Shown here piece by piece: positions 4,538 to 23,428 of a DNA stretch of 64,000 bases. Where the stretch lies: the NCBI RefSeq assembly GCF_006864135.1, contig NZ_SADV01000012.1, positions 50,608-114,607 of the forward strand, in the 5' to 3' direction. Source of the stretch: Lysinibacillus sphaericus. Lineage in GTDB: Bacteria; Bacillota; Bacilli; Bacillales_A; Planococcaceae. Below the pieces are notes generated by a model. It did no database searches and was not told the DNA's origin. It saw only the letters and a list, made by a program, of their open reading frames with translations. A program made the position numbers and the translations under genes. How positions within the stretch are numbered: position 1 is the stretch's first letter; the number at the start of each line of letters is the position of its first letter.

Positions 4538-5134
4538 ATTGCCATGCTTTGCGATATATAAATATAAAACTTTGTACAGGTAATAAAATTTGATGTAGGA
4601 AAAGTTTACATTCGAGATTAGCTCAGTTTTAGTTGACGTTGGGTGGTTGCCATAGTTGATAAAGAGGATGCTTAAGGTTATTCATTAACACAGCAAGTAC
4701 ATAATGGATTTTTTAAAATCTACACTGTAACCGTTATTGCGTCGTTTACAAACTCGAACTAGGGGTTTGTGTAGTAACGGAACAAAAAAGCAATATAACT
4801 CCATACCTCTTATATTTTATTTCCCTTTAATTTTTAGTAACAGTCCAAAATCTTTCAACTCCCTCTAGTAAGTGAAATGAATATCCTTTCCATAATACTT
4901 ATAAGTGCATGTCCTACTGGAGTGAGTTCTTTGTTTGATCACCTGTATTATTATAAGGGTCAAGCCACGACTAATTCCACAACTGAAGCGTAGCGAAATG
5001 CGTTAGTAATCTTTAGTAAACATATTCCTCTCTTCTCACATTCAAGAGTTTCTATACACATTTATATAAGCAAAACTATACATTTTAAAATATTATCATT
5101 GTGTATTCTATTGATAATAATTAGGAGGATCAGT

Positions 5135-8100
5135 ATGAACCGATTTGTTAAAGTAGAAAATGCCCAGTTGATAACTGAGGCTCAATACGATGTAACAGAA
5201 AATCAGAAAGTATTATGGTTGGCACGTCAAATGGACATAGAAGCGGGCATTTATAATGAACCCGTATCTATACAAATAAAAGGAGACTTAGATCATAAAA
5301 AATTACAAAAGGCCTTGCAATATGTTGTAGCGAAACACGTAGCGTTACAAATGAATATTGTATCTACGAATAACGGTCTGAAGCAATTAAGGAAAGAACA
5401 ATTTCATGTAAACATGGATTTTTATGATTGGTCTTCCTATCCTAGCGCCATAAGAGATCAGATGTTGGACAAATCTTTGAAATTAAATCTTCACACAAGA
5501 TTTGATCTAACCTCAGATGCTTTGTTTCGGTTTCAACTGTATCAGTTGGAACCAAATGAATATCTCCTTCACATGATGTTTCATCATATTATTTATGATG
5601 GATGGAGTTTAGGATTATTCTTGCAAGATTTAGAACAGGCCTATTCATTAGATCTAACTTTTGAAATAGAAAAGAACAATCATAGACTACATATGTATGA
5701 AAAACTTTTACATAAACATCAAAATTATATTGGAACAGAGGATTATGTTACTTCAGAAAAATATTGGAGTATAAAATTAGAAGGTACCTTACCGTGGAGT
5801 GAATTTCCAACAAGTTGCGCAAAGTCACCTGTACCAACATATCAAGGAGGAGCTTTACAATATGCAATAAAGCCTTCTTTATCTAACCTTATAAAACAAT
5901 TTTCAAAGGAAAAGCAAGTTAGCTCATACCGTGTATGGCTAAGCATCTATGTTGTTTTATTACATCAAATGACAAATCAGACAGACTTGGTAGTTGGAAT
6001 GCCAATTAACACGAGAAGCAGTGACGAAGAAGCGCGAGAGGTATTTGGCTACTTTGTGAATACAGTCCCACTACGTATAGCATTTTCACCGACCGAGACT
6101 TTTACAGAGTTAGTTCAAAAAGTGAATGACTCAGTAAAAGAGGCTATTGCACATGGAGATTATCCATTGAACCATTTGATTCAGCAAGTTAAGAATCGAG
6201 AAGAAAATAACACGTCTTTATATTCAACAGTATTCAACATGGTGAAACTTCCGAATTTCAGAATGGAAGACTTAGAAACGAAAGTCATTACACATCAAAA
6301 TCGAATAAGTGTGTTTAATATGGTATGGCGATTAGTTCAAAACCAAAGTGATGCTTTAAATATTGAAATTGATTATAACGCAGGTATATATGATGAAAAC
6401 GACATACAGAACTTTATAGATAGATTTCAACATTTACTACAGGCATTGATAGAAAACAGTGACAAACCTATATCCAATCTAGAGTTGCTTTTACCACAGG
6501 ATATTGATGTTTATCAAAACACATTGGCTGTGAAAAATGTGCCGCCTATGACATTAGATCAACTCATTGATGAACAAGCGGATATACACCCAGATCGTAT
6601 TGCTATAACGATGGGTCAACAAAATATCACTTATCAAGAGTTACGGGTCTTGTCAAACCAAGTGGCACAAACTTTATTGCGCCAAGGATTTCAAAAACAA
6701 AACCGTGTAAGTATCATCATGAATCGTAGTATAGAAGCCGTTGTTTCAATGATTGGAGTATTAAAGGCAGGAGGTACCTATGTACCTGTGGAGCCAGATT
6801 TTCCTGTAGACCGGGTTCGTTTTATATTACAGGATAGTGAGTCAACTCATATTATTACAAGTCATAAGTTCAGTTTACAACATATTCAACTAGATCAAAA
6901 AGTTATTTTATATGAAGACATGTCTAAACAGTCCATTATTGAGCAAGCGAAACGAACACATGCAACGGAAGATGCCGCCTATATCATTTATACATCTGGT
7001 TCTACTGGAAATCCTAAAGGTGTATTGATTCCTCATAAGGGAGTAATTCACTTTATACAATCCTTAAAAGATACGTATCATTTTCAGAAAAATCACGTAC
7101 ATCTGCAATTTGCATCACTTATCTTTGATGCATCCGTCTGGGAAATCTATAGTAGTTTGTTAACTGGTGGGAGGCTTTATATTTTATCGGAAATAGAAAG
7201 AAAATCTTTCAACCACTTTATCGAGGCTATTGAGAAGCAACAAGTAAATTTTTGTCTTTTACCTACTGTATTTTTCCATACCTTAACGCAAGCGTCTCTG
7301 CATGAATTAGAAAAATTAAAATCACTAAACTATATATTTGTTGGTGGAGAGACATTGCTACCAGAAACAGTAAGAAAATGGCAAGAAAAAGTAGATTTAA
7401 AAATTCCGATTGTAAATGCATATGGTCCAACAGAATCGACAGTCTGTGTCGCCACATATCCGATTATCAACAAGGTAAATGAAACACAAGTAAATATACC
7501 AATTGGGAAACAGTTATCTCATACAGAAATCTATATTTTGAACGAACAGCATCAAATTTGTCCACCGTACGTACCTGGAGAGATTTATATTGGTGGGAAT
7601 AGCCTTGCGCAGAAATATGTCAATCAACCTGATAAAACAAAAGAATCATTTATAACTGTAAATTTACCAACTTCGTCTAAGGCAAGACTATATAAAAGTG
7701 GTGATCAAGGTCTTATCACACAAGATGGACAAGTTGAATTTTTAGGACGTATAGATAAGCAGGTGAAGATTCGTGGATATCGTATCGAGTTAGAAGAAAT
7801 CGAAGAACAAATGCTCCGACACCCATCTATTCAACATTCATCTGTGATAGTTTATCAGAATAAAAAAGGCGATCAGCAATTGATTGCTTTCTACATATTG
7901 CAAAAAGAGGCTATTGTGGCTGCTGATGATATTCAAGCATACCTTTCAGAAAAGTTACCTTATTTTATGCTACCGAATTACATGCAAGATGTTGAGGCGT
8001 TTCCTTTAACACCGAGCGGCAAGATAGATTATAACTCATTACAAAAGCAAGCAGAGTCTGTATTAGAAAACCGTACTCAAAGATATATTCCACCCAATAC

Positions 8101-11100
8101 AAATACTGAAATACAATTACAAAATATCTGGGCAGAAGTTTTACGGATGAATTCTGAACAGATAAGTATCGAAGATGATTTTTTCACGATTGGTGGACAT
8201 TCTTTACTCACAGTCCAAGTCATTAATCGTATTCATGCCAGACTCCGTGTACAGATAAGTTTAAAAGACTTATATGTATATCGAACGATTCATACATGTG
8301 CTGATTATATAGACCGATTAAATCCTATAGATATTGAAGACGTAATTCCACAAATTCCTGAACAAACGTATTACCCGTTATCCCATGCACAAAAAAGACT
8401 TTGGTTTTTATACAAAAGGTATCCAAAAGATCGAACATATGATATCCCTATCCAGGTACAAATACAGCCCGGTATACAAATCAAAATGTTGAACAAAGCT
8501 TTATATGAAGTTGTAAAACGACATGAAATTTTTCGAACGGTTTTCATGGAAAAGCAAGGGGAGCCTGTGCAACACATACGAGAAGAAATAGACGCGATAG
8601 CTACACACGTGGATATTACCAAAATTAAAAAGAGTAAACAAGCAGCATATAGGTTGAAGTGTATACGGGAGATTGATTCTAAAGAGTTTAATTTAGAACA
8701 GGGTCCATTATTCCGAACGATACTATTCACAGAGAGTGAAGATTGCTCTTGGTTATATTTGAATTTCCATCATATTATTATGGATGAATGGAGTTTACAA
8801 CGTTTTCTAAAGGAGCTATTGGAGGTATATGATGAAATATTACTAAATAAAATTGTGCATGCTACCAAACCTACTGTTAGATATGTTGATTATGTCGCAT
8901 GGCAATATGAACATCTTTCGTTAGGAACGTGGGAAATAGAAAAAAAATATTGGAGACAAGAGTTCCAAAACGTTCTACCTCAATTATCACTACCATACGA
9001 TCGAATGCGTCCTAGTACTCCTTCAAATCATGGTGCGGTGCTTTCTAAGAAAATAGACCAGATAAATTTGGCAGGATTAAAAAAACTTGCACAACAAGAG
9101 GAAGTTTCACTATTCATACTGCTATTCACTGCTTACACGCAATTTTTACAGCAGATATGTGGGCAGAATGACCTCATTGTAGGAACACCTGTGACAGGGA
9201 GACAACATACAGCATTTGAAGATGTACAAGGTTTCTTTGTCAACACAGTTGCAATTCGAGTAGATACAACAGATGCAGCTACAATGAAAGAATTGTGTGA
9301 AGTTGTAAAAGAGAAATGTCTTTTGGCATTCCAACATCAAAACTATCCATTTGATAAGGTAATTGAAGCAGTAAACCCTGAACGAAGAGCACATGATAAT
9401 CCAATTTTCCAAACTATGTTTAGTTATCAACAGTACTCAGCTCAACAACATAACTTGCATCGATTGGATATACAACCTGTAGAACAAGCAATTAGTAAAT
9501 TTGACTTATCTCTTACATTTGTGGAGGAAGATGATGGTCTAATTATGGATTTAGAATATAATACTGATTTGTTTGAAAGAACAACGATTTCACGTTTTGC
9601 AGAACAACTATTGCAAACTATCCAGATGATACAAACAGATTTTACTACATCTCTTTGTCAATTAAATATATTGAGTGATACAGATAAATCTATGTATCAA
9701 AAATTGAATGATACGTATATGGCGATACCACAACATTCATCAATACAGGAACGTTTTTATCGGCAAGTGTATAAAAGACCCGATGCGATCGCAATTTCTA
9801 CGGAGGATAGGTTATATACTTATGAAGAGGTGAATCATTATTCTAATCAAATTGCTCATTATTTGATTGAAAAAGGAATTCAGCTCAATGATGTAGTTGC
9901 CATTTTCTTAGACCGAAGTTTAGAAAGTATTGTATGTATGTTGGGGGTTCTCAAAGCTGGCGGTACCTATGTGCCTATTGATATTAAATATCCGCCAGAA
10001 CGTGTATCGTATATTTTAAATGACAGTAAGGCAAAGCTAATTCTAACGAAAAATTCTCTAAAAAAAGAATCACTATCTCATTATGAACAAGTAGCTGTAA
10101 TAGAAGATATGTTAGCATCGTCTGCGATTCAAGACATCTTAAACAAAAATACAGCGGAAGACACAGCTTATATGATCTACACATCTGGATCGACGGGAAA
10201 TCCGAAAGGTACATTACTCCGACATGCTGGCGTACTGAATTTAGTGGAATGGCGCTCACAAACATTCCATATAACAGAGCAAGATGTGTTATCTCAGTTT
10301 TACTCTCACAGTTTTGATTCGTCTGTTTCGGAAATTTTTTCAGCTTTATTAACTGGAGCAAGACTTCATTTGTTAAATGAGGAACAACGTTACTCTTCAC
10401 AGGCATATTTCGATGCAGTTTCTACTTATAACATTACGATTTCAGACGTGGCAACAGCCTTTTTTAAACAATTAGCAAATGGAGTTTCTTCAAAACAGCT
10501 CATTCCATTAAAAAGTTTACGTGTGCTAATTATGGGAGGAGAAGCTGCATCTGCAGAGGCTATTCGAATATGGCAATCTGAAATGAGTGATACTGTACAG
10601 ATTGTCAATGAATATGGACCTACGGAAACAACAGTTAGTTCGTTGTATCACTCTGTTTCTACAAAAGTGGATAGTACAGTTACCCAGATTCCTATTGGGA
10701 AGCCTATTGCTAATACAAAAGTCTATATCTTAAACGAAAACATGCAGCTGTGTCCAATAGGTGTAATAGGAGAACTGTACATTGAGAGTGTAGGAACAGC
10801 AATCGGGTATGTAAATCAGCCAGATAGAACCAAACAATCATTTTTATCTAACCCGTTTTCTAAAGAAAATCATTCTATTTTATATCGGACAGGAGATCTA
10901 GTACGCCTAGAATCAAATGGAAGTGTAGAATATATGGGTAGACGTGATAGACAAGTGAAAATAAGAGGATATCGTATTGAACTAGGAGAAATTGAAGATG
11001 TACTTGTGCAAGAGCCTCGCATTCAACAAGCGGTGGTTCTACCTGATGCAGAAGGAAAAGAATTACACGCATATTTCACTGTTCATAATCAAACAGAAAT

Positions 11101-12739
11101 AAGTATTGAAGAAACCTATAAGCATGTTTCCGCTACTTTACCGGAATATATGGTACCAAAAGGATATGTTTGTGTACACGAGATTCCTGTCACACAAAAT
11201 GGCAAAATAGATGTTCAAAAACTACTAGGACAGTATCAAATACAGTACCGGAAAAATAGAAATCATCAACCACCTGTTACAGAAACACAAAAGGTACTAG
11301 CTAATGTTTGGGCAGAAGTATTAAACATAAAAGACTTAAACATAAAAGATGATTTTTTTGCTCTTGGGGGGCACTCATTAAAAATTATGCCTACTTTGGT
11401 GAAACTAAAACCATACTTCCCTAACTTGCGTATACAGGATTTCTTTCACTATCGTACAATAGAAAAACTGGCGCGAAAAATAGATACAGCGCTTCAACAA
11501 GAAAACAGTATAGGAGCAACGGTGGGAGAGTATAAAAAAGAAAATAATATTCATATAGATAAGCAAGAAAACAATACGAAATGGGATACATTAATACATG
11601 CTTCACAACAGAAACCTCGTTGTATACTATTAACAGGCGGAACAGGTTTTCTTGGTTCCCATATCTTAGAGCAGTTATTATTACTACCTGATACAGTGAT
11701 TTATTGCCTAGTTCGGAATCAAAAACAAACTTCAATGGAAAACAAAGTACGAGAAAAAATGCAGTTTTACTTTGGCGAGGTTATATTAGAAAAAATGAAG
11801 CATCGCGTTCATATTATTGAAGGAGATTTGAGCAAAGAACATCTAGGCCTTACACCAAATATAAAAAAACAATTGATTCAAGAAATAGATACGATCATAC
11901 ATTGTGGAGGAGATGTGCGTCATTATGGAGACAGAGAACATTTTATCCAAGTCAATGTGGAATCTACTAAATACTTATTAGACATGAGTAAAGAAGCACG
12001 TGCACGTTTTCATTATATTTCAACAATTAGCATTTCTGGACATGCCCCTCATGATGCTAAAGAGTTTTTGTTCTCTGAACAAGACTTTGACAGAGGACAG
12101 CAGTTAGAAAATGTATATGTGGAAAGTAAATTTTTGGCAGAAAAATTAGTGAGAGAAGCAATAAAAGAAGGCGTCCCAGCAACAGTGTATCGTGTAGGAA
12201 ACCTAGTAGGGCAAACACTTGATGGGAGGTTTCAAGAGAATATAGAAGGTAATGCTTTTTATCGTTTGATAAAAGCTATCTTATTACTACAAATTGCACC
12301 GAACATTCATACGTATATTGATCTAGTACCTATCGATTTTGGTAGTAAAGCTATTGTACAATTGGTATGTACAAAGGAAACGGGAGGGGAAACTTTCCAC
12401 ATTTGTAATCCTGTTCAACTGGAATGGAAACCGTTTGTTGAATATTTGAAACAGAGCGGTCATCCTATTAAAATTGTAAATACTGAACAGTTTATGAACT
12501 TATTTAAAGACGATTCATTGTCTGATAAACAAAAATATGCTTTGGAATTAATGGTGCCTTTACTAGAAGAAACAGCTGAAAATTCTTTATCAATCCCAAC
12601 GTGTCAATATACTCAACGTTTTTTACAAGAAGTTGATGTGGTATGCGAATTACCTAATGCAAAGTTTGTATCTAATTTGATAGATTATGGATCTCGATTA
12701 GGTTTTTTCCCCGCTAGCAGAGAATATACTACGGTTTAA
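5135..12739 (+). CDS. nonribosomal peptide synthetase, C-A-T-C-A-T-R
   Basis: Two-module NRPS of 2534 residues. Start ATG 5135 has AGGAGG at 5123-5128; upstream in-frame codons lack a site. Domains: C1 (about 15-445, HHIIYDG at H150-H151); A1 (about 470-985, YTSGSTG near 616, NAYGPTE); T1 (S1023 in GGHSL); C2 (about 1075-1510, H1212-H1213 but HHIIMDE, Gly replaced by Glu); A2 (about 1530-2030, YTSGSTG near 1679, NEYGPTE); T2 (S2081 in GGHSL); terminal NAD(P)H reductase (TGGTGFLG at 2167-2174, Y2328-xxx-K2332). No thioesterase. An initiating C domain plus terminal R domain is the layout of enzymes making N-acylated dipeptide aldehydes. Specificity residues read by hand against GrsA: A1 D-A-W-L-F-G-A-V-C-K (closest to a known Leu code D-A-W-L-Y-G-A-V-M-K); A2 D-S-S-D-I-G-E-V-S-K, acidic pocket suggesting a basic residue. 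No phosphopantetheinyl transferase or exporter beside it. Confidence 0.95.
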   Translation: MNRFVKVENAQLITEAQYDVTENQKVLWLARQMDIEAGIYNEPVSIQIKGDLDHKKLQKALQYVVAKHVALQMNIVSTNNGLKQLRKEQFHVNMDFYDWSSYPSAIRDQMLDKSLKLNLHTRFDLTSDALFRFQLYQLEPNEYLLHMMFHHIIYDGWSLGLFLQDLEQAYSLDLTFEIEKNNHRLHMYEKLLHKHQNYIGTEDYVTSEKYWSIKLEGTLPWSEFPTSCAKSPVPTYQGGALQYAIKPSLSNLIKQFSKEKQVSSYRVWLSIYVVLLHQMTNQTDLVVGMPINTRSSDEEAREVFGYFVNTVPLRIAFSPTETFTELVQKVNDSVKEAIAHGDYPLNHLIQQVKNREENNTSLYSTVFNMVKLPNFRMEDLETKVITHQNRISVFNMVWRLVQNQSDALNIEIDYNAGIYDENDIQNFIDRFQHLLQALIENSDKPISNLELLLPQDIDVYQNTLAVKNVPPMTLDQLIDEQADIHPDRIAITMGQQNITYQELRVLSNQVAQTLLRQGFQKQNRVSIIMNRSIEAVVSMIGVLKAGGTYVPVEPDFPVDRVRFILQDSESTHIITSHKFSLQHIQLDQKVILYEDMSKQSIIEQAKRTHATEDAAYIIYTSGSTGNPKGVLIPHKGVIHFIQSLKDTYHFQKNHVHLQFASLIFDASVWEIYSSLLTGGRLYILSEIERKSFNHFIEAIEKQQVNFCLLPTVFFHTLTQASLHELEKLKSLNYIFVGGETLLPETVRKWQEKVDLKIPIVNAYGPTESTVCVATYPIINKVNETQVNIPIGKQLSHTEIYILNEQHQICPPYVPGEIYIGGNSLAQKYVNQPDKTKESFITVNLPTSSKARLYKSGDQGLITQDGQVEFLGRIDKQVKIRGYRIELEEIEEQMLRHPSIQHSSVIVYQNKKGDQQLIAFYILQKEAIVAADDIQAYLSEKLPYFMLPNYMQDVEAFPLTPSGKIDYNSLQKQAESVLENRTQRYIPPNTNTEIQLQNIWAEVLRMNSEQISIEDDFFTIGGHSLLTVQVINRIHARLRVQISLKDLYVYRTIHTCADYIDRLNPIDIEDVIPQIPEQTYYPLSHAQKRLWFLYKRYPKDRTYDIPIQVQIQPGIQIKMLNKALYEVVKRHEIFRTVFMEKQGEPVQHIREEIDAIATHVDITKIKKSKQAAYRLKCIREIDSKEFNLEQGPLFRTILFTESEDCSWLYLNFHHIIMDEWSLQRFLKELLEVYDEILLNKIVHATKPTVRYVDYVAWQYEHLSLGTWEIEKKYWRQEFQNVLPQLSLPYDRMRPSTPSNHGAVLSKKIDQINLAGLKKLAQQEEVSLFILLFTAYTQFLQQICGQNDLIVGTPVTGRQHTAFEDVQGFFVNTVAIRVDTTDAATMKELCEVVKEKCLLAFQHQNYPFDKVIEAVNPERRAHDNPIFQTMFSYQQYSAQQHNLHRLDIQPVEQAISKFDLSLTFVEEDDGLIMDLEYNTDLFERTTISRFAEQLLQTIQMIQTDFTTSLCQLNILSDTDKSMYQKLNDTYMAIPQHSSIQERFYRQVYKRPDAIAISTEDRLYTYEEVNHYSNQIAHYLIEKGIQLNDVVAIFLDRSLESIVCMLGVLKAGGTYVPIDIKYPPERVSYILNDSKAKLILTKNSLKKESLSHYEQVAVIEDMLASSAIQDILNKNTAEDTAYMIYTSGSTGNPKGTLLRHAGVLNLVEWRSQTFHITEQDVLSQFYSHSFDSSVSEIFSALLTGARLHLLNEEQRYSSQAYFDAVSTYNITISDVATAFFKQLANGVSSKQLIPLKSLRVLIMGGEAASAEAIRIWQSEMSDTVQIVNEYGPTETTVSSLYHSVSTKVDSTVTQIPIGKPIANTKVYILNENMQLCPIGVIGELYIESVGTAIGYVNQPDRTKQSFLSNPFSKENHSILYRTGDLVRLESNGSVEYMGRRDRQVKIRGYRIELGEIEDVLVQEPRIQQAVVLPDAEGKELHAYFTVHNQTEISIEETYKHVSATLPEYMVPKGYVCVHEIPVTQNGKIDVQKLLGQYQIQYRKNRNHQPPVTETQKVLANVWAEVLNIKDLNIKDDFFALGGHSLKIMPTLVKLKPYFPNLRIQDFFHYRTIEKLARKIDTALQQENSIGATVGEYKKENNIHIDKQENNTKWDTLIHASQQKPRCILLTGGTGFLGSHILEQLLLLPDTVIYCLVRNQKQTSMENKVREKMQFYFGEVILEKMKHRVHIIEGDLSKEHLGLTPNIKKQLIQEIDTIIHCGGDVRHYGDREHFIQVNVESTKYLLDMSKEARARFHYISTISISGHAPHDAKEFLFSEQDFDRGQQLENVYVESKFLAEKLVREAIKEGVPATVYRVGNLVGQTLDGRFQENIEGNAFYRLIKAILLLQIAPNIHTYIDLVPIDFGSKAIVQLVCTKETGGETFHICNPVQLEWKPFVEYLKQSGHPIKIVNTEQFMNLFKDDSLSDKQKYALELMVPLLEETAENSLSIPTCQYTQRFLQEVDVVCELPNAKFVSNLIDYGSRLGFFPASREYTTV

Positions 12740-13741: not shown

Positions 13742-13843
13742 TGTACAGGTTGTGAAGTTTATACAACTGAAAATGAGAAGGTTGAAGCCAAATTGGAGTG
13801 GAACGGAAAATCGGAAATTATTAAATTGGACAGTAAATACTAA
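13742..13843 (+). pseudogene. C-terminal fragment of an unidentified protein
   Basis: An open frame of 33 codons, preceded directly by a stop and lacking a start, reads CTGCEVYTTENEKV then EAKLEWNGKSEI and ends at TAA 13841-13843. The strand-like alternating composition looks like the end of a real protein, not random sequence. It begins exactly where the right 90-bp repeat ends. Between here and 14230 I see only AT-rich sequence. Confidence 0.4.
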
Positions 13844-14283
13844 TGAAATCAACCTTCCTGCATTTTAAATTCGCAAACCATTAATTAGTTTTTTTATTTA
13901 TTCAGTCCTGCAATTCAATTCTACAATCTAATAGTTTTAAAACTTCTATAATAATAAAAGACTAAATAAAAAAAATATTCCAAAAAAAGAAGGGATTTTA
14001 AAACGATTGTGTAATATGTAATATTATAGAAAATAAAGAATTAATAGGGTTTTGGTTTATGGATTTTTTCTTTTAAACTTTTTGATAGTAGCTTTTCGAA
14101 ATTTATTAGATTCCAATTCTTTAAACAAACAATAAAAAAAGGATTTTTTGTGTAAATATTCCAATTTACGTGATATTTATAGCCAAAGTTGAAGTAACAG
14201 TGATAAATCACATCTTGAATATAGGATTATTAAATAATAAACCAAAAGTCAGCCTAAAAATACACTGAAAGGAGGTGATTTAT

Positions 14284-14301
14284 ATGCAATGGAATTATTA
14301 A
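14284..14301 (+). CDS. micro-ORF MQWNY, copy 1 (putative minimal RiPP precursor)
   Basis: ATG-CAA-TGG-AAT-TAT-TAA, five residues. Ribosome binding site AAAGGAGGTGA (14268-14278) is a near-perfect complement to 16S rRNA, at optimal spacing. A second ATG overlapping at +1 frame (14289) would give a 15-residue peptide beginning MELLI, but its spacing from the site is about 13 bases and its codons vary between copies. Proposed role by analogy with biarylitide clusters: substrate whose Trp3 and Tyr5 are cross-linked by the P450 at 14988. This role is inference. Confidence 0.7.
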   Translation: MQWNY

Positions 14302-14380
14302 TACTTAGTAAGGAAAAGTGTAATTCAACTTATTAAACCAAAAGGTAGCTTAAAAAATACATTGAAAGGAGGTAATTCAT

Positions 14381-14398
14381 ATGCAATGGAATTATTAA
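14381..14398 (+). CDS. micro-ORF MQWNY, copy 2
   Basis: Same 18 bases as copy 1, with AAAGGAGGT eight bases upstream of the ATG. The overlapping alternative frame reads MELLIFSKEECISTY here, differing from copies 1 and 3. Confidence 0.7.
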   Translation: MQWNY

Positions 14399-14477
14399 TA
14401 TTTAGTAAGGAAGAATGTATTTCAACTTATTAAAACAAAAAGCAGCTTAAAAAATACATTGAAAGGAGGTAATTCAT

Positions 14478-14495
14478 ATGCAATGGAATTATTAA
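14478..14495 (+). CDS. micro-ORF MQWNY, copy 3
   Basis: Same 18 bases and ribosome binding site as copy 2. The overlapping alternative frame reads MELLIFSKEECNSTY. Confidence 0.7.
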   Translation: MQWNY

Positions 14496-14574
14496 TATTT
14501 AGTAAGGAAGAATGTAATTCAACTTATTAAAACAAAAAGCAGCTTAAAAAATACATTGAAAGGAGGTAATTTAT

Positions 14575-14592
14575 ATGCAATGGAATTATTAA
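14575..14592 (+). CDS. micro-ORF MQWNY, copy 4
   Basis: Same 18 bases, ribosome binding site AAAGGAGGT. The tail of this last unit has lost one base relative to the others, so the overlapping frame here runs on to a 22-residue peptide ending NYYGCTC instead of stopping at 15 residues. That the MQWNY codons stay intact while the other frame drifts favours MQWNY as the selected product. Confidence 0.7.
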   Translation: MQWNY

Positions 14593-14661
14593 TACTTAGT
14601 AAAGAAAATGTAATTCAACTTATTAATTATTACGGGTGTACATGCTAACAATTATGATTAC

Positions 14662-14691
14662 AAAAAGACAGGGCGTATTCCCTGTCTTTTT
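14662..14691 (+). terminator. intrinsic terminator between the micro-ORF array and the P450 gene
   Basis: 12-bp stem AAAAAGACAGGG (14662-14673) with CCCTGTCTTTTT (14680-14691), T-rich 3' arm. It would end most transcripts of the array before the P450 gene, giving precursor excess over enzyme, a common arrangement in RiPP loci. Confidence 0.85.
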
Positions 14692-14913
14692 ATAATGTTA
14701 AAACAGGTGATAATGTGATAAATGCTTTTAGAGCTGTAGAGATTACGATTTATTTTTAATTAAAAAATTCAATTGTTATTCCTTTATGTGCTAGATTTAA
14801 AAATACCCAATTTGAAGAAGTGTATAATTTCGAAAATGATCTTTACAAATTTTTAGATATAATGTGAAATAATTCTTAAAATAATATCAATTCAGAAAAT
14901 ATACTTCCATTTT

Positions 14914-14941
14914 TTGTATACATAAGTTACACTTATATTAT
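14914..14941 (+). promoter_or_regulatory. candidate promoter of the P450 gene
   Basis: TTGTAT at 14914-14919, 16 bases, TATTAT at 14936-14941, about 47 bases before the P450 start. Weak -35 match. Confidence 0.45.
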
Positions 14942-14987
14942 AAATAATTTACTGATATTACCATAAAGAGATGTAGGAGGAATCGCT

Positions 14988-16148
14988 ATGACAAAAACAG
15001 AATTACAGTATAATCCTTTGGATTCGGAAACATTAAATAACCCATACCCGATTTACCATCAACTTCGTGAAAATTCCCCCGTTTTTTGGCATGAAGGTAT
15101 GAAATCTTGGGTTCTAACCAGATATGAGGATTGTAGGGAAGTTCTTCGTAATCACGAACTGTTTGCTAGGGATTTGCGACGTATTGGTGTTGATATTCCT
15201 GATATAAAAAATAACCTTCAAACTTTAGATCCGCCTGCTAATATGCCATTACGTAATCTAATGATAAAAGCTTTTAATTCTCAGGATATTGAAAGTATTA
15301 GACGTAGAGTTCATGATTTAATTGAGGACATTTACAAAAAACAAGTTTCTAATAAAGAATTTGATTTTATGAAAGAAGTTTCAGCTCCGCTTTCATTAAG
15401 TTTAACATGTATTTTGCTAGGCATAGAAGAACCAGACTTAGAATCTATTGTAGAAATATCTGATGCTATTGCTTATCAGATGGACTCCGGATTAGTACCA
15501 GAGAATGCAGAACTCGGTAATTCAGCAAGAAAAAAACTCAACGAACTTGTTGAAGAATGGTTGGCAGCAGAAGAACAGCCTGGAATTCTATCTTATATAA
15601 GAAAAAATAGTCAGAAAGCTAATATACCAGAACATTATGTGCGTAACACTACAGGCACAATGTTTACTGCAAGCTTTGGTACGTTATATGCATCTTTTGG
15701 TAATGCTCTACTTGTACTGTTAGAACACCCAGATATTCTTGATCAATTTAAAAATCAAGAGTTACTTGACTCTGGAGTTGATGAATTAATTAGATATGAT
15801 GGCCCAGCAACAGGAACAAGTCGTTTTGCAGTTGAGGAAACTAAAATTGGGGAAACTATCATTAAACCTGGTGAAATTGTTTTAACTTTACTTGCTGCTG
15901 CTAATAGAGATCCTGAAGTATATCCCGACCCAGATAGAATTATTCTAAATCGATCTGCAAAACCAAATCTTGGTTTCGGTTGGGGTCCGCATTCTTGTGT
16001 AGGGACTTTGTTTGGTAAACTAGCAATTCAACAATTAATAGTATGTTTACTCGAATCGCCTAGACGTTTACAACTGGTATCGGAACCTAAGCGACGCAAT
16101 ACGGCTACTGTACGTTGTATAGATGTATTACCTGTTTCATTTAATTAA
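14988..16148 (+). CDS. cytochrome P450, probable peptide-crosslinking enzyme
   Basis: Soluble bacterial class I P450 of 386 residues, needing ferredoxin partners not encoded nearby. Heme-binding loop FGWGPHSCVG with ligand C337; K-helix ExxR at E266-R269. The I-helix motif, usually (A/G)Gx(D/E)T, reads A228-S229-F230-G231-T232: the acidic residue used in oxygen activation is replaced by Gly, as is often seen in P450s that couple rather than hydroxylate. The HTRLR-like heme-propionate motif reads NMPLR (85-89). ATG has AGGAGG seven bases upstream. It directly follows four copies of a pentapeptide micro-ORF, the layout of biarylitide RiPP loci, so I infer it acts on MQWNY, joining Trp3 and Tyr5. 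Small-molecule oxidation is the alternative. Confidence 0.93.
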   Translation: MTKTELQYNPLDSETLNNPYPIYHQLRENSPVFWHEGMKSWVLTRYEDCREVLRNHELFARDLRRIGVDIPDIKNNLQTLDPPANMPLRNLMIKAFNSQDIESIRRRVHDLIEDIYKKQVSNKEFDFMKEVSAPLSLSLTCILLGIEEPDLESIVEISDAIAYQMDSGLVPENAELGNSARKKLNELVEEWLAAEEQPGILSYIRKNSQKANIPEHYVRNTTGTMFTASFGTLYASFGNALLVLLEHPDILDQFKNQELLDSGVDELIRYDGPATGTSRFAVEETKIGETIIKPGEIVLTLLAAANRDPEVYPDPDRIILNRSAKPNLGFGWGPHSCVGTLFGKLAIQQLIVCLLESPRRLQLVSEPKRRNTATVRCIDVLPVSFN

Positions 16149-16247
16149 TTCTCTTATACACTAAATGGTTAATTTATTAAAAGTAGTGATAGTAGGGGTA
16201 CCAACAACAAAACGCAAATTTTGTACGCTAAGCAATTTTTCGCATAG

Positions 16248-16337: not shown

Positions 16338-16667
16338 CTAGGCATTAGCATTTTGAATAAAATCTACCATTTCCTCCTTTAATTCAAGCGTAAATTCTGT
16401 ACGTGTACTGAGATAAAATTGATTATTACTAGACAGATGTACGTGTATAAGGTTTGCTGATTGCAATATCATAAGGTGACGATGGAGATTCCCTTTAGCT
16501 CCGCCTATATAATTTAAAATATCCGTAAACTTATATCTATTCTTTGAAAGAAACTGAAGTATTTCCAAACATTCTTTTTTTAAAATACTAAAGGTATGGA
16601 GCGGACGAAAGTGAAGAGAAGGAATTAGAACAACGTGCTTTATTGTTGGGATTTTTGAAGCGGACAC
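16338..16667 (-). CDS. winged-helix transcriptional regulator, 109 residues (5' end uncertain)
   Basis: A winged helix-turn-helix fold is apparent around residues 28-90: ILQFLSKNRYKFTDILNYI, then the recognition helix GGAKGNLHRHLMILQ and a wing NLIHVHLSSNNQFYLST. This resembles ArsR/MarR-type regulators. The only in-frame start, GTG at 16667, has no ribosome binding site, and the sequence just beyond is a dnaE remnant on the other strand, so the true 5' end may have been removed by a rearrangement. Convergent with the P450; it could regulate the P450 locus but nothing in the sequence shows it. Confidence 0.55.
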   Translation of the reverse strand: MSASKIPTIKHVVLIPSLHFRPLHTFSILKKECLEILQFLSKNRYKFTDILNYIGGAKGNLHRHLMILQSANLIHVHLSSNNQFYLSTRTEFTLELKEEMVDFIQNANA

Positions 16668-18137: not shown

Positions 18138-18400
18138 CTATCCGTTTTAGTTTTAGAAGAGATCTAAGAGTTGCATGAGAAATATTTCATAAAATAATTA
18201 AATTGAGTGTATTCTATTATCGCTATTCAAATAATATAATTTTCATAGTTTAATCCGATATTTAGTTTTTCCAGTTTACAAAAAGATTTAGCCACAACGT
18301 TATTATCATATCGTAATGAAAATACGTATAAAATCTCTGGAAAATCTGTACAAAAAGTATGGCATATAGGTAAGCAGTGGAGGACAATTCAAAAACTATT
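18138..18400 (+). repeat. dispersed repeat R, copy 2, plus decayed leader of the aminopeptidase
   Basis: Shares CCGTTTTAGTTTTAGAAGAG, GTGTATTCTATTATCG and CATAGTTTAATCCGA blocks with copies at 29460 and 3965. Bases 18290-18420 align by eye with the region upstream of the third aminopeptidase copy (22040-22198), including TTATCATATCG, CTGTACAAAAAGTATGG and TATTGGACAGA, but the small frame starting MSDKK there is destroyed here. Confidence 0.7.
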
Positions 18401-18422
18401 GGACAGAAGCGAGGTAATTAAT

Positions 18423-19652
18423 ATGACTTTTGAAGAAAAATTACAAGCATATGCAGAACTTGCGGTAAAAGTTGGTGTCAATATTCAACCTGGGCAATAT
18501 TTATTAGTCAATACATCAGTGGATGCATTGGACTTCGCCCGTTTAGTTGTGAAAGAGGCTTATAAGGCTGGGGCAGGACGTGTTCATGTTAACTTTTCGG
18601 ATGATGAAATGGATCTAGCTTACTTTGAGCATGCCTCAGATGAAGAATTTAATCGTTTCCCAGAATGGATAGTCAAAATGCGTGATGAGGTAATCGAACG
18701 TAAAGGAGCACTATTGTGGATTGATGCTGCAGACCCTGATAAATTAACAGGTATTTCAGCAGATCGTCTAGCTACCTATCAAAAGGTTTCAGGAGCTGCT
18801 CTAAGAAACTATCGCAACGCCGTCATGAAAAGTTTATTCGCTTGGTCGATTGTAGCCGTCCCTTCACCAAAGTGGGCATCGAAGGTGTTCCCGAGCTTAG
18901 CAGCTGAGGAACAAGTACCGGCATTATGGGATGCTATATTTAAAACAGTTCATATCGGTGAAGGCAATGCTGTTGAAAACTGGCGTGAATATGTAACAAA
19001 TTTAGAATCTCGTGCGCTCCTTCTGAACAATAAAAAATATGCGAAGCTTCACTATACAGCGCCAGGTACTGATTTAACAATTGCCTTAGTGCCACAACAT
19101 AAATGGATTACTGTTGGTGGTAAAACGCCAGATGATACGAACTTTATTGCTAATATGCCGACAGAAGAGGTTTATACGTTACCGATGAAACGGGGTGTAA
19201 ATGGCTATGTAAGCAATACAAAACCTTTGGTTTATCAAGGGAATATTATCGATGGCTTTAAACTGACATTTGAAGAAGGAAAAATTGTTAAAGCTGAAGC
19301 ACAGGTAGGACATGATTTATTACAGGAGCTTATTAATGTGGATGAAGGCTCTTGCTATTTAGGTGAAGTAGCACTTGTACCGCATGAATCACCAATTTCA
19401 GTATCGGGGATTTTATATTTTAAAACATTGTTTGATGAAAATGCATCGAACCATTTAGCAATTGGTAAAGCATATCCAACTTGCTTAGAAGGTGGAAGAG
19501 ATTTGGAAAACGATCAGCTTGAAGCGTTAGGTGCAAATAATTCAGTAACACATGAGGACTTTATGATTGGCAATGGTGAGATGGACATCGACGGTATTCT
19601 ACCAGATGGAACTGTAGAGCCAATTTTCCGTAAAGGTAACTGGGCATTTTAA
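18423..19652 (+). CDS. M29-family leucyl aminopeptidase, copy A
   Basis: Metallo-aminopeptidase of 409 residues, the usual length for the AmpS/aminopeptidase T family; removes N-terminal residues from peptides in the cytoplasm using two divalent metals. The family ligands can be placed: E315 in GEVALVPHESP, H321, H344 in NHLAIGKAY, Y351, and H377-x-D379 in THEDFMIG. The start is ATG 18423, with GAGGT seven bases upstream; the longer frame from 18399 is leader sequence. About 90% identical by eye to copy C (22199-23428). Followed by a GDSL-lipase remnant as copy C is. It is one of two intact copies among four homologous loci in the window. Confidence 0.93.
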   Translation: MTFEEKLQAYAELAVKVGVNIQPGQYLLVNTSVDALDFARLVVKEAYKAGAGRVHVNFSDDEMDLAYFEHASDEEFNRFPEWIVKMRDEVIERKGALLWIDAADPDKLTGISADRLATYQKVSGAALRNYRNAVMKSLFAWSIVAVPSPKWASKVFPSLAAEEQVPALWDAIFKTVHIGEGNAVENWREYVTNLESRALLLNNKKYAKLHYTAPGTDLTIALVPQHKWITVGGKTPDDTNFIANMPTEEVYTLPMKRGVNGYVSNTKPLVYQGNIIDGFKLTFEEGKIVKAEAQVGHDLLQELINVDEGSCYLGEVALVPHESPISVSGILYFKTLFDENASNHLAIGKAYPTCLEGGRDLENDQLEALGANNSVTHEDFMIGNGEMDIDGILPDGTVEPIFRKGNWAF

Positions 19653-20311: not shown

Positions 20312-21027
20312 ATGAATCCAGTAGTTGGTCTGGATGTCGCAAAAGGTGAAAGTCAGATTCAAATGTTCTTGGATAAAAAAATGCCCTATAAAAATAGTGT
20401 GAAAGTTGAACATACGGTGGAGGGGCTTGAAAGATCGGAAAAATTAATCGGAGCTGCAGAACGCAATCCATTTCAATCAACTCTTTATCAAAGTCTTCTA
20501 GTCAGTTTGAATATGTATATTGATTTACTCCAATACTTCAAGTGTACCACCAACAACTTTCTACGTTGGTGCGTGAGATTGATGAGTTAGCGGCACAACT
20601 TGAAGAATATGAATTACTCCAATCAATCCCCGGTATTGGTGAAAAAATCGCTGCAACGATTATTTAAGAAATCGGAGAAATTGATCGGTTTAATCATCCG
20701 AAAAAGTTAGTAGCCTTTGCAGGACTAGATCCCAGTGCCTTTGAATCAGGTCGCTTTAAAGGCACGAAAAATCACATTACTAAACGCGGCTCGGCTAGGC
20801 TTCGTCACATGCTTTATACAGCTGTTCGTTGTTCTATTCGAGATAGTCGGAAAAAGAAAACAACACCTGAAACTATCGCACGAAATAAGCGATTACGAGC
20901 CTTCTACGATTTAAAACGTGAGGAAGAAAAGCCATACAAAGTAGCCATTATTGCTTGTGCAAATAAGCTTTTACATTGGATTTATGCGATTTTAAAAACG
21001 AAAACACCATTCCACGAAACTATATAG
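20312..21027 (+). pseudogene. IS110-family transposase, broken
   Basis: Ribosome binding site AGGAGGAG before ATG 20312. N-terminal start NPVVGLDVAKGESQIQMF is the first Asp motif of the DEDD nuclease domain. After about 50 codons most of the DEDD domain is deleted; the frame then continues with the C-terminal Transposase_20 domain (LLQSIPGIGEKIAATII, then in-frame TAA at 20665-20667, KKLVAFAGLDPS, RGSARLRHMLYTAVRCS). Internal deletion, frameshift and stop make it inactive. Confidence 0.9.
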
Positions 21028-22039: not shown

Positions 22040-22198
22040 ATGAGTGATAAAAAACCCCATTTTTTTTTATCATATCGTGAAGAAAAAGCGTATGAAAAGT
22101 GGTCACGAGAAATTTCTGAGAAACCTGTACAGAAAGTATGGTATGAAGACAAGCGAGCGGATGATAAAAAACAATTGGACAGAGGAGAGGTAAATAAT
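22040..22198 (+). other. in-frame N-terminal extension or leader ORF of aminopeptidase copy C
   Basis: ATG 22040 preceded by TTTAGGAGGTAAATAT. Fifty-three codons rich in Lys, Glu, Tyr and Trp (SYREEKAYEKW, VQKVWYEDKRADDKK) run without a stop into the aminopeptidase ATG. Whether translation yields a 462-residue or a 409-residue protein cannot be decided here. Confidence 0.5.
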
Positions 22199-23428
22199 AT
22201 GACGTTTGAAGAAAAATTACAAGCATATGCAGAACTTTTGGTAAAAGTCGGTGTCAATATTCAACCAGGGCAATACTTATTAGTCAATACATCTGTGGAT
22301 GCATTGGATTTCGCCCGTTTAGTTGTGAAAGAGGCTTATAAGGCTGGGGCAGGACGTGTTCATGTTAATTTTTCGGATGTGGAAATGGATCGTGCTTACT
22401 TTGAGCATGCCTCAGATGAAGAATTTAATCGTTTTCCAGAATGGATCGTCAAAATGAATGATGAGCTGATCGAACGTGAAGGAGCACTATTAATAATAGA
22501 TGCTGAAGACCCTGATAAGTTTGCAGGTATTTCAGCCGATCGTCTAGCTACTTATCAAAAGGTATCGGGGGCTGCTCTGAGCAACAATCGCAACGCCGTA
22601 ATGAAGGATTTAATAGCTTGGTCGATGGTAGCAGTTCCTTCACCAAAGTGGGCATCGAAGGTGTTCCCAAACTTAGTAGCTGAGGAACAAGTGCCTGCAT
22701 TATGGGAGGCTATTTTTAAAACTGTTCATATCGGTGAAGGTAATGTTGTTGAAAACTGGCGTGAACATGTAACAAATTTAGAAGCTCGCGCGGTCCTACT
22801 GAACAATAAAAAATATGCGAAGCTTCACTATACAGCGCCAGGTACTGATTTAACAATTGCATTAGCACCACAGCATAAATGGATTACTGGAGGTGGTAAA
22901 ACGCCAGATGATACGATCTTTATGGCTAATATGCCGACAGAAGAGGTTTATACGTTACCGATGAAACAAGGTGTAAATGGCTATGTAAGCAATACAAAAC
23001 CATTAGTATATCAAGGGAATATTATCGACGGCTTTAAACTGACATTTGAAGAAGGAAAAATTGTTAAAGCCGAAGCACAGATAGGGCTCGATTTATTACA
23101 GGAGCTTATGAATGTGGATGAAGGCTCGTGCTATTTAGGTGAGGTAGCACTTGTACCACATGAATCGCCAATTTCAGCATCGGGGATTTTATATTTTAAT
23201 ACATTGTTTGATGAAAATGCATCGAACCATTTAGCGATTGGTAAAGCTTATCCAACTTGTTTAGAGGGTGGAAGAGATTTAGAAAATGATCAGCTGGAAG
23301 CGTTAGGTGCAAATATTTCAGTAACACATGTGGACTTTATGATTGGCAGCAGTGAGATGGACATCGACGGTATTCTACCAGATGGAACTGTAGAGCCAAT
23401 TTTCCGTAAAGGTAGCTGGGCATTTTAA
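22199..23428 (+). CDS. M29-family leucyl aminopeptidase, copy C
   Basis: Same enzyme as copy A, 409 residues from ATG 22199 (site GAGGAGAGG about nine bases upstream). All metal-ligand motifs are present: GEVALVPHESP, NHLAIGKAY and THVDFMIG. The frame is also open upstream to an ATG at 22040 with an even better site (TTTAGGAGG), which would add 53 residues (MSDKKPHFFLSYREEK and onward). That extension is charged and not part of the M29 fold; it may be a separate small leader protein now fused in frame, or the true start. In copy A the equivalent leader is decayed, so it is not needed for the enzyme. Followed by a GDSL-lipase remnant. Confidence 0.92.
   Translation: MTFEEKLQAYAELLVKVGVNIQPGQYLLVNTSVDALDFARLVVKEAYKAGAGRVHVNFSDVEMDRAYFEHASDEEFNRFPEWIVKMNDELIEREGALLIIDAEDPDKFAGISADRLATYQKVSGAALSNNRNAVMKDLIAWSMVAVPSPKWASKVFPNLVAEEQVPALWEAIFKTVHIGEGNVVENWREHVTNLEARAVLLNNKKYAKLHYTAPGTDLTIALAPQHKWITGGGKTPDDTIFMANMPTEEVYTLPMKQGVNGYVSNTKPLVYQGNIIDGFKLTFEEGKIVKAEAQIGLDLLQELMNVDEGSCYLGEVALVPHESPISASGILYFNTLFDENASNHLAIGKAYPTCLEGGRDLENDQLEALGANISVTHVDFMIGSSEMDIDGILPDGTVEPIFRKGSWAF

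Follow-up and report, generated by a model that had tools for sequence, protein, structure and literature searches.

The window analysed here, a 64-kb stretch of a Lysinibacillus sphaericus contig (NZ_SADV01000012.1), contains a tandem array of very short genes, each encoding the pentapeptide MQWNY, followed on the same strand by a cytochrome P450 gene. The features of the locus are the following.

13843..16194, plus strand: whole conserved cassette (5' region, array, terminator-like hairpin, P450), from blastn against the KCTC 33748 locus
14239..14626, plus strand: tandem array, period 97, four units (Tandem Repeats Finder)
14269..14276, plus strand: Shine-Dalgarno AAGGAGGT, copy 1 (pattern scan)
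14284..14301, plus strand: precursor gene copy 1, MQWNY and stop (sequence)
14366..14373, plus strand: Shine-Dalgarno, copy 2 (pattern scan)
14381..14398, plus strand: precursor gene copy 2, MQWNY and stop (sequence)
14463..14470, plus strand: Shine-Dalgarno, copy 3 (pattern scan)
14478..14495, plus strand: precursor gene copy 3, MQWNY and stop (sequence)
14560..14567, plus strand: Shine-Dalgarno, copy 4 (pattern scan)
14575..14592, plus strand: precursor gene copy 4, MQWNY and stop (sequence)
14657..14696, no strand assigned: terminator-like hairpin in the array/P450 interval, with a T-run on either side (scan and folding; also in the KCTC 33748 locus)
14975..14982, plus strand: likely ribosome binding site of the P450 gene, AGGAGGAA (read from the sequence)
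14988..16148, plus strand: cytochrome P450, 386 aa, predicted MQWNY cross-linking enzyme (Pfam, PDB sequence search, AlphaFold/Foldseek)

The 18-mer ATGCAATGGAATTATTAA, which encodes MQWNY and a stop codon, is present in the window at exactly four sites, all on the plus strand. The ORFs start at 14284, 14381, 14478 and 14575 (spacings 97, 97 and 97), together span 14284-14592, and in each of them AAGGAGGT ends 7 bases 5' of the ATG. This confirms the sequence-only reading of four identical 18-bp ORFs, exactly 97 bases apart and each with its own near-perfect ribosome binding site. Tandem Repeats Finder describes the repeat as a single array (14239-14626, period 97, 4.0 copies, 92% matches, score 641). 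When the four units were aligned with gaps, 98 columns resulted, of which 20 were variable; none of these 20 fell within the 18 columns of the ORF (hypergeometric P 0.010), so that the ORF is indeed the most conserved part of the repeat. The ungapped version of this test gave P 0.0006, a value inflated by an indel, and on its own the invariance of the ORF is modest evidence. By chance, 0.005 five-codon ORFs with the aromatic-x-aromatic pattern behind an AAGGAGG would be expected per 64 kb (first-order Markov model of the window, both strands, 200 simulations), versus the four observed. Throughout the 5.1-Mb genome, the pattern of ribosome binding site and ORF start with up to two mismatches was detected at four sites, all in the array, and the reversed pattern, used as a control, at none.

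The ATG of the P450 gene lies 395 bases beyond the last MQWNY ORF. The ORF at 14988-16148 was correctly recognized as a P450 gene, its product matching Pfam p450 with an E of 5.4e-25. In a sequence search of the PDB, seven of the eight best rows were RufO or P450Blt, and the top row was 22yx, a P450. An AlphaFold model of the enzyme (mean pLDDT 90.2) was compared with the PDB by Foldseek, where ranks 1-13 were all RufO or P450Blt (TM by query length 0.87-0.95), with an E of 2e-27 or better versus 5e-23 for the next P450. P450Blt (Micromonospora MW-13) and RufO (rufomycin) share the fold of our enzyme at about 33% identity and have pentapeptide substrates; both are described as acting on MRYLH (PMC12186263, PMC10929621), in contrast to the MQWNY encoded here. 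These neighbours in sequence and fold, together with the MxYxH genes carried by related loci, place the P450 among the pentapeptide-modifying enzymes, in line with the earlier proposal.

A second locus of this kind was found in Lysinibacillus sp. KCTC 33748, a member of the same genus. The P450 of that locus shares 98% identity with ours, and three ORF copies make up the array, with spacings of 57 and 55 owing to shorter spacers. All seven copies of the MQWNY ORF in the two loci are identical, compared with 86% identity in the 5' flank (327/380) and 93% in the gap between array and P450 (329/354). The two P450 genes differ by 25 synonymous and 8 non-synonymous codons (dN/dS 0.0089/0.108, about 0.08). 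When the window was aligned by blastn with 13 kb at the KCTC 33748 locus, only 13843-16194 aligned, and the conserved unit therefore consists of the array, the hairpin and the P450. Neither a peptidase nor an exporter gene is present within this cassette. An ArsR-like gene (16338-16667) was rejected as a component, as it lies beyond the cassette. Farther along the window there are two M29 aminopeptidase genes (18399-19652 and 22040-23428), 90% identical over 417 residues; the short ORFs between them (20312-21027) look like transposase remnants, and the one tested (20312-20590) had no Pfam match.

Among 101 related genomes, the array pattern and a P450 98-100% identical (E below 1e-200) occur in the same two, so the co-conservation of array and enzyme that had been suggested as a check was indeed found. 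In another 12 of the 101 genomes, the P450s present do not exceed 34% identity. At E 1e-60, the P450 was detected in 2 of 32 genomes of the genus, and in 398 genomes of the class no match was found beyond the source genome. Tandem repeats arise readily and other arrays are present in the window, which would fit a decayed or neutral repeat that happens to lie beside an unrelated P450. Such an origin is extremely improbable in view of the seven identical ORFs retained despite remodelled spacers, the dN/dS of the P450 and the co-occurrence of array and close P450 in the same two genomes.

An NRPS gene (5099-12739) is located 1.5 kb before the array. Its product has condensation and adenylation domains, two of each, ends in a reductase-type domain and is predicted to make a dipeptide aldehyde or alcohol. 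RufO, among the closest solved relatives of the P450, is reported to nitrate the Tyr of MRYLH, feeding an NRPS (PMC12186263), and the P450 could likewise nitrate or hydroxylate a single residue of MQWNY as a building block for the neighbouring NRPS, with no cyclic peptide being formed. This is unlikely. There is no NRPS within 6 kb on either side of the KCTC 33748 cassette, and the first 1167 residues of the NRPS have only 21-32% matches in that genome (best 27-31%); the NRPS is therefore not part of the conserved unit, and a link to it was rejected. Furthermore, His235 and Glu239, which hold His5 in RufO, correspond to Thr227 and Gly231 here.

The terminator that the sequence-only reading placed after the array is a less secure assignment. 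The stem of the hairpin at 14657-14696 folds (z -1.59), TTTTT follows it on the plus strand too, and it is kept in the sister locus; however, the terminator scan found it on the minus strand only and at chance level (1 found versus 1.0 expected in shuffles). Short ORFs with Trp and Tyr codons, then a terminator-like hairpin, then the P450, is also the order expected of a transcription attenuator, whose leader peptides would be the MQWNY ORFs and whose target would be the P450. We regard this as very improbable and rejected it: no complement of at least five bases to the GACAGGG arm of the hairpin was found within 14201-14650, hence there is no classical antiterminator. In addition, of the relatives whose locus is known, the two nearest have their pentapeptide gene 3' of the P450, where it cannot attenuate that gene, and four near-perfect ribosome sites, one per unit, would be superfluous for attenuation. 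Upstream, a 12-base stretch (14203-14214) could base-pair with the ribosome site of copy 1 (14272-14283), both being present in KCTC 33748 as well. A structured 5' region was rejected, since shuffled sequences fold comparably (z -0.80). Rfam searches of the 5' region returned two matches only, far below their gathering scores, and the promoter scan was uninformative, because it found 10 sites versus 15.3 expected.

Precursor genes were searched for within 3 kb at related P450 loci; a candidate had to be an ATG ORF, 5-8 codons long, in which residues 3 and 5 are both aromatic, with a ribosome site of at least 4 bases. Such ORFs were found at 19 of 27 loci, the window and its sister included. 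In Bacillus arachidis, the P450 is 65% identical and MNYNH is encoded 69 bases 3' of it; in Sporolactobacillus shoreicorticis, the P450 is 61% identical and MIYDH is encoded 40 bases 3' of it. Precursors of Actinomycetota are MSYDH, MTYDH, MRYDH, MRYDHCL or MDYSH, and the more distant ones are MRYLH and MRYEY. The MRYDHCL form, found in three Streptomyces loci (L033, L034 and L035) 115 bases 5' of the P450 match, has two residues beyond the usual five. Relatives in the MxYDH/MNYNH clade have one precursor copy each in the loci examined. The expectation that homologous P450 genes are accompanied by a pentapeptide ORF thus holds at most loci but fails at eight of the 27 (L028, L029, L038, L039, L043, L044, L047 and L050), where none was found within 3 kb. 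L043, L044, L047 and L050 (28-30% identical) are probably other P450s. L028, L029, L038 and L039 are members of the clade, with P450s 40-55% identical to the MQWNY enzyme; a scan of both strands over 13 kb yielded no more than one GTG ORF, which lacks a ribosome site and lies 6.3 kb off, in L029. Another precursor type, a distant precursor or an orphan enzyme are possible alternatives for these four.

In the tree, B. arachidis and Sporolactobacillus join the MQWNY pair with 100/100 support, and this group lies inside the MxYDH clade; Trp-X-Tyr is therefore most simply derived from Tyr-X-His; the root is a midpoint root, five of the 24 forks are open and the letter make-up of the Bacillota rows is unlike that of the rest. 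The tree and the residue table comprise 27 loci; L045 (partial), L046, L048, L049 and L051-L103 were left out from 80 loci. The first four of these were scanned and no precursor was found, while L051-L103 (28% identity or less) lie outside the precursor scan. Four Bacillus-type proteins (P0004, P0005, P0007 and P0008; 65-69% identical) lie outside the locus comparison, so that it covers the precursors of the nearest relatives only in part. The B. arachidis YX15 locus (L104) resembles ours in the Asn between the two aromatic residues, but has a Tyr-X-His core in a single copy after the P450, versus Trp-X-Tyr in four copies before it. It is carried by a mobilizable plasmid (NZ_CP127373.1), where the P450 and MNYNH (about 8578-12400) are flanked on one side by an annotated IS6 transposase and on the other by what looks like a similar stretch that carries no annotation; this arrangement points to a mobile cassette.

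Genes for a PGM1-type ligase and an amidinotransferase are present near the P450 in Sporolactobacillus and on two Streptomyces plasmids, and a PGM1 association of Asp-4 precursors is described for 47 clusters in PMC13417212. The MxYDH-branch loci L105, L106 and L025 (P450 42-61% identical) have a pentapeptide gene with a clear ribosome site, as here, but they combine a Tyr-X-His core and one precursor copy with the ligase and the amidinotransferase. The core encoded in the window is Trp-Asn-Tyr instead of the Tyr-Asp-His of that branch. Ligase and amidinotransferase queries had no match in the source genome or in KCTC 33748. The same searches recovered homologues (41% and 67-68% identical) on plasmid W02 with both queries and on plasmid W03 with the amidinotransferase, the sole query run there. 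On the B. arachidis plasmid, where two other ATP-grasp genes are present, neither query had a match, and the ligase query had none in the genome of the MSYDH locus L026 (G438). The absence of these partners is therefore not special to Lysinibacillus and could have an earlier origin.

The residues of the enzyme were compared in an alignment of 80 rows, made up of the window P450 and 79 of the 120 proteins listed among 289 related ones. Four rows are Lysinibacillus-like (97-100% identical) and 76 are others. RufO is described as contacting the peptide backbone through residues 84, 188 and Arg231 (PMC12186263), and two of these three contacts are kept in the MQWNY enzyme. Residues 84 and 188 align with Q78 and R181, which are invariant and at least 90% conserved, respectively, whereas Arg231 corresponds to Gly223; the mapping is a manual count along the RufO alignment, in which the RufO chain has Gln where PMC12186263 gives Glu84. 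The pocket for residue 5 is different. His234 and Glu238 of P450Blt (His235 and Glu239 of RufO) are replaced by Thr227 and Gly231, and the RufO-type network that holds His5 is missing. Residue 227, whose RufO and P450Blt counterparts are reported to contact the side chain of residue 5 (PMC12186263, PMC10929621), is Thr in the four Lysinibacillus-like rows and Asn (55), Gln (15), Leu (4) or Ile (2) in the 76 others. Residue 275 aligns with RufO 284, beside Val283 and Leu286, which are described as lining Tyr3 (PMC12186263); it is Thr in the four rows, and Gln (75) or Val (1) in the others. The correspondence of residues 227 and 275 was likewise counted by hand on the RufO alignment. Ten columns with at least 80% agreement among the 76 differ in the four, 275 being one of them and 227 (Asn 72%) not. 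T275, Y312, A324 and N327 occur in none of the 76 other rows and K325 in one; N327 is also present in two MRYLH enzymes. The changes are not confined to the pockets, since conserved columns are also altered at Y312, A324, K325 and N327.

MQWNY has been described by Padva et al. (JACS Au, July 2026; PMC13417212) from four strains of Lysinibacillus that differ in copy number. Their loci have the same precursor in the same genus, with multiple bytA copies and a bytO-type P450 as here; one strain has six copies, against four in the window. The multi-copy MQWNY finding is therefore already known, and the earlier remark that no example with Trp-X-Tyr, tandem precursor genes or a Bacillales host was known is overturned. 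This was the only paper on Lysinibacillus and biarylitides found among open-licence PMC papers. Its available sections single out the Trp at position 3 of MQWNY as noteworthy and present a model of an MxWxY complex in which Trp3 is near the heme, its indole N occupying the position that Tyr3 takes in typical peptides; the model suggests a C-N link from the indole nitrogen of Trp3 to Tyr. Relative to these sections, the proposed MxYDH-branch origin, the limits of the cassette and the two pocket changes are additions.

As in biarylitide loci, a five-residue precursor is encoded by an 18-base gene preceded by a ribosome site of its own, here in four copies; residues 3 and 5 of the precursor are aromatic (Trp3 and Tyr5); and 395 bases away lies a P450 that sequence, fold and tree place in the P450Blt/BytO group. 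Very probably this is a minimal RiPP locus of the biarylitide type, in which MQWNY would be the substrate of the adjacent P450Blt/RufO relative, predicted to join Trp3 and Tyr5 oxidatively. The four genes would flood the cell with MQWNY, the tandem copies raising precursor supply, and the hairpin may keep P450 transcripts below precursor transcripts. The P450 would oxidise Trp3 and couple it to Tyr5, with a loss of 2 Da, after which unlinked housekeeping peptidases would probably trim Met-Gln to leave cyclic Trp-Asn-Tyr. A linked peptidase is not required, since characterised biarylitides are described without a dedicated one; for myxarylin, a prolyl oligopeptidase encoded elsewhere is proposed for the trimming (both PMC12951456).

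The locus may descend from the MxYDH branch by replacement of both linked residues, accompanied by matching changes in the two side-chain pockets of the enzyme; the precursor gene would have been placed upstream of the P450 and amplified in tandem, with no PGM1-type ligase or amidinotransferase. We propose tentatively, as a possibility somewhat short of an even chance, a switch of specificity from a Tyr-X-His ancestor, in which Tyr3 to Trp and His5 to Tyr went with Asn to Thr at residue 227 and Gln to Thr at residue 275. Its product would be the first Trp3-Tyr5 biaryl RiPP, made from an amplified gene without ligase or amidinotransferase, with bare cyclic Trp-Asn-Tyr as the end product.

Genes of 18 bases are missed by annotation pipelines, and these loci show that they can be duplicated and persist. 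Comparison with the MNYNH and MIYDH enzymes yields a small set of residues that may decide which aromatic pair is joined. If the bond is made, Trp-X-Tyr would be added to the cross-links obtained from one P450 and a five-residue substrate, which would be useful for making rigid cyclic tripeptides.
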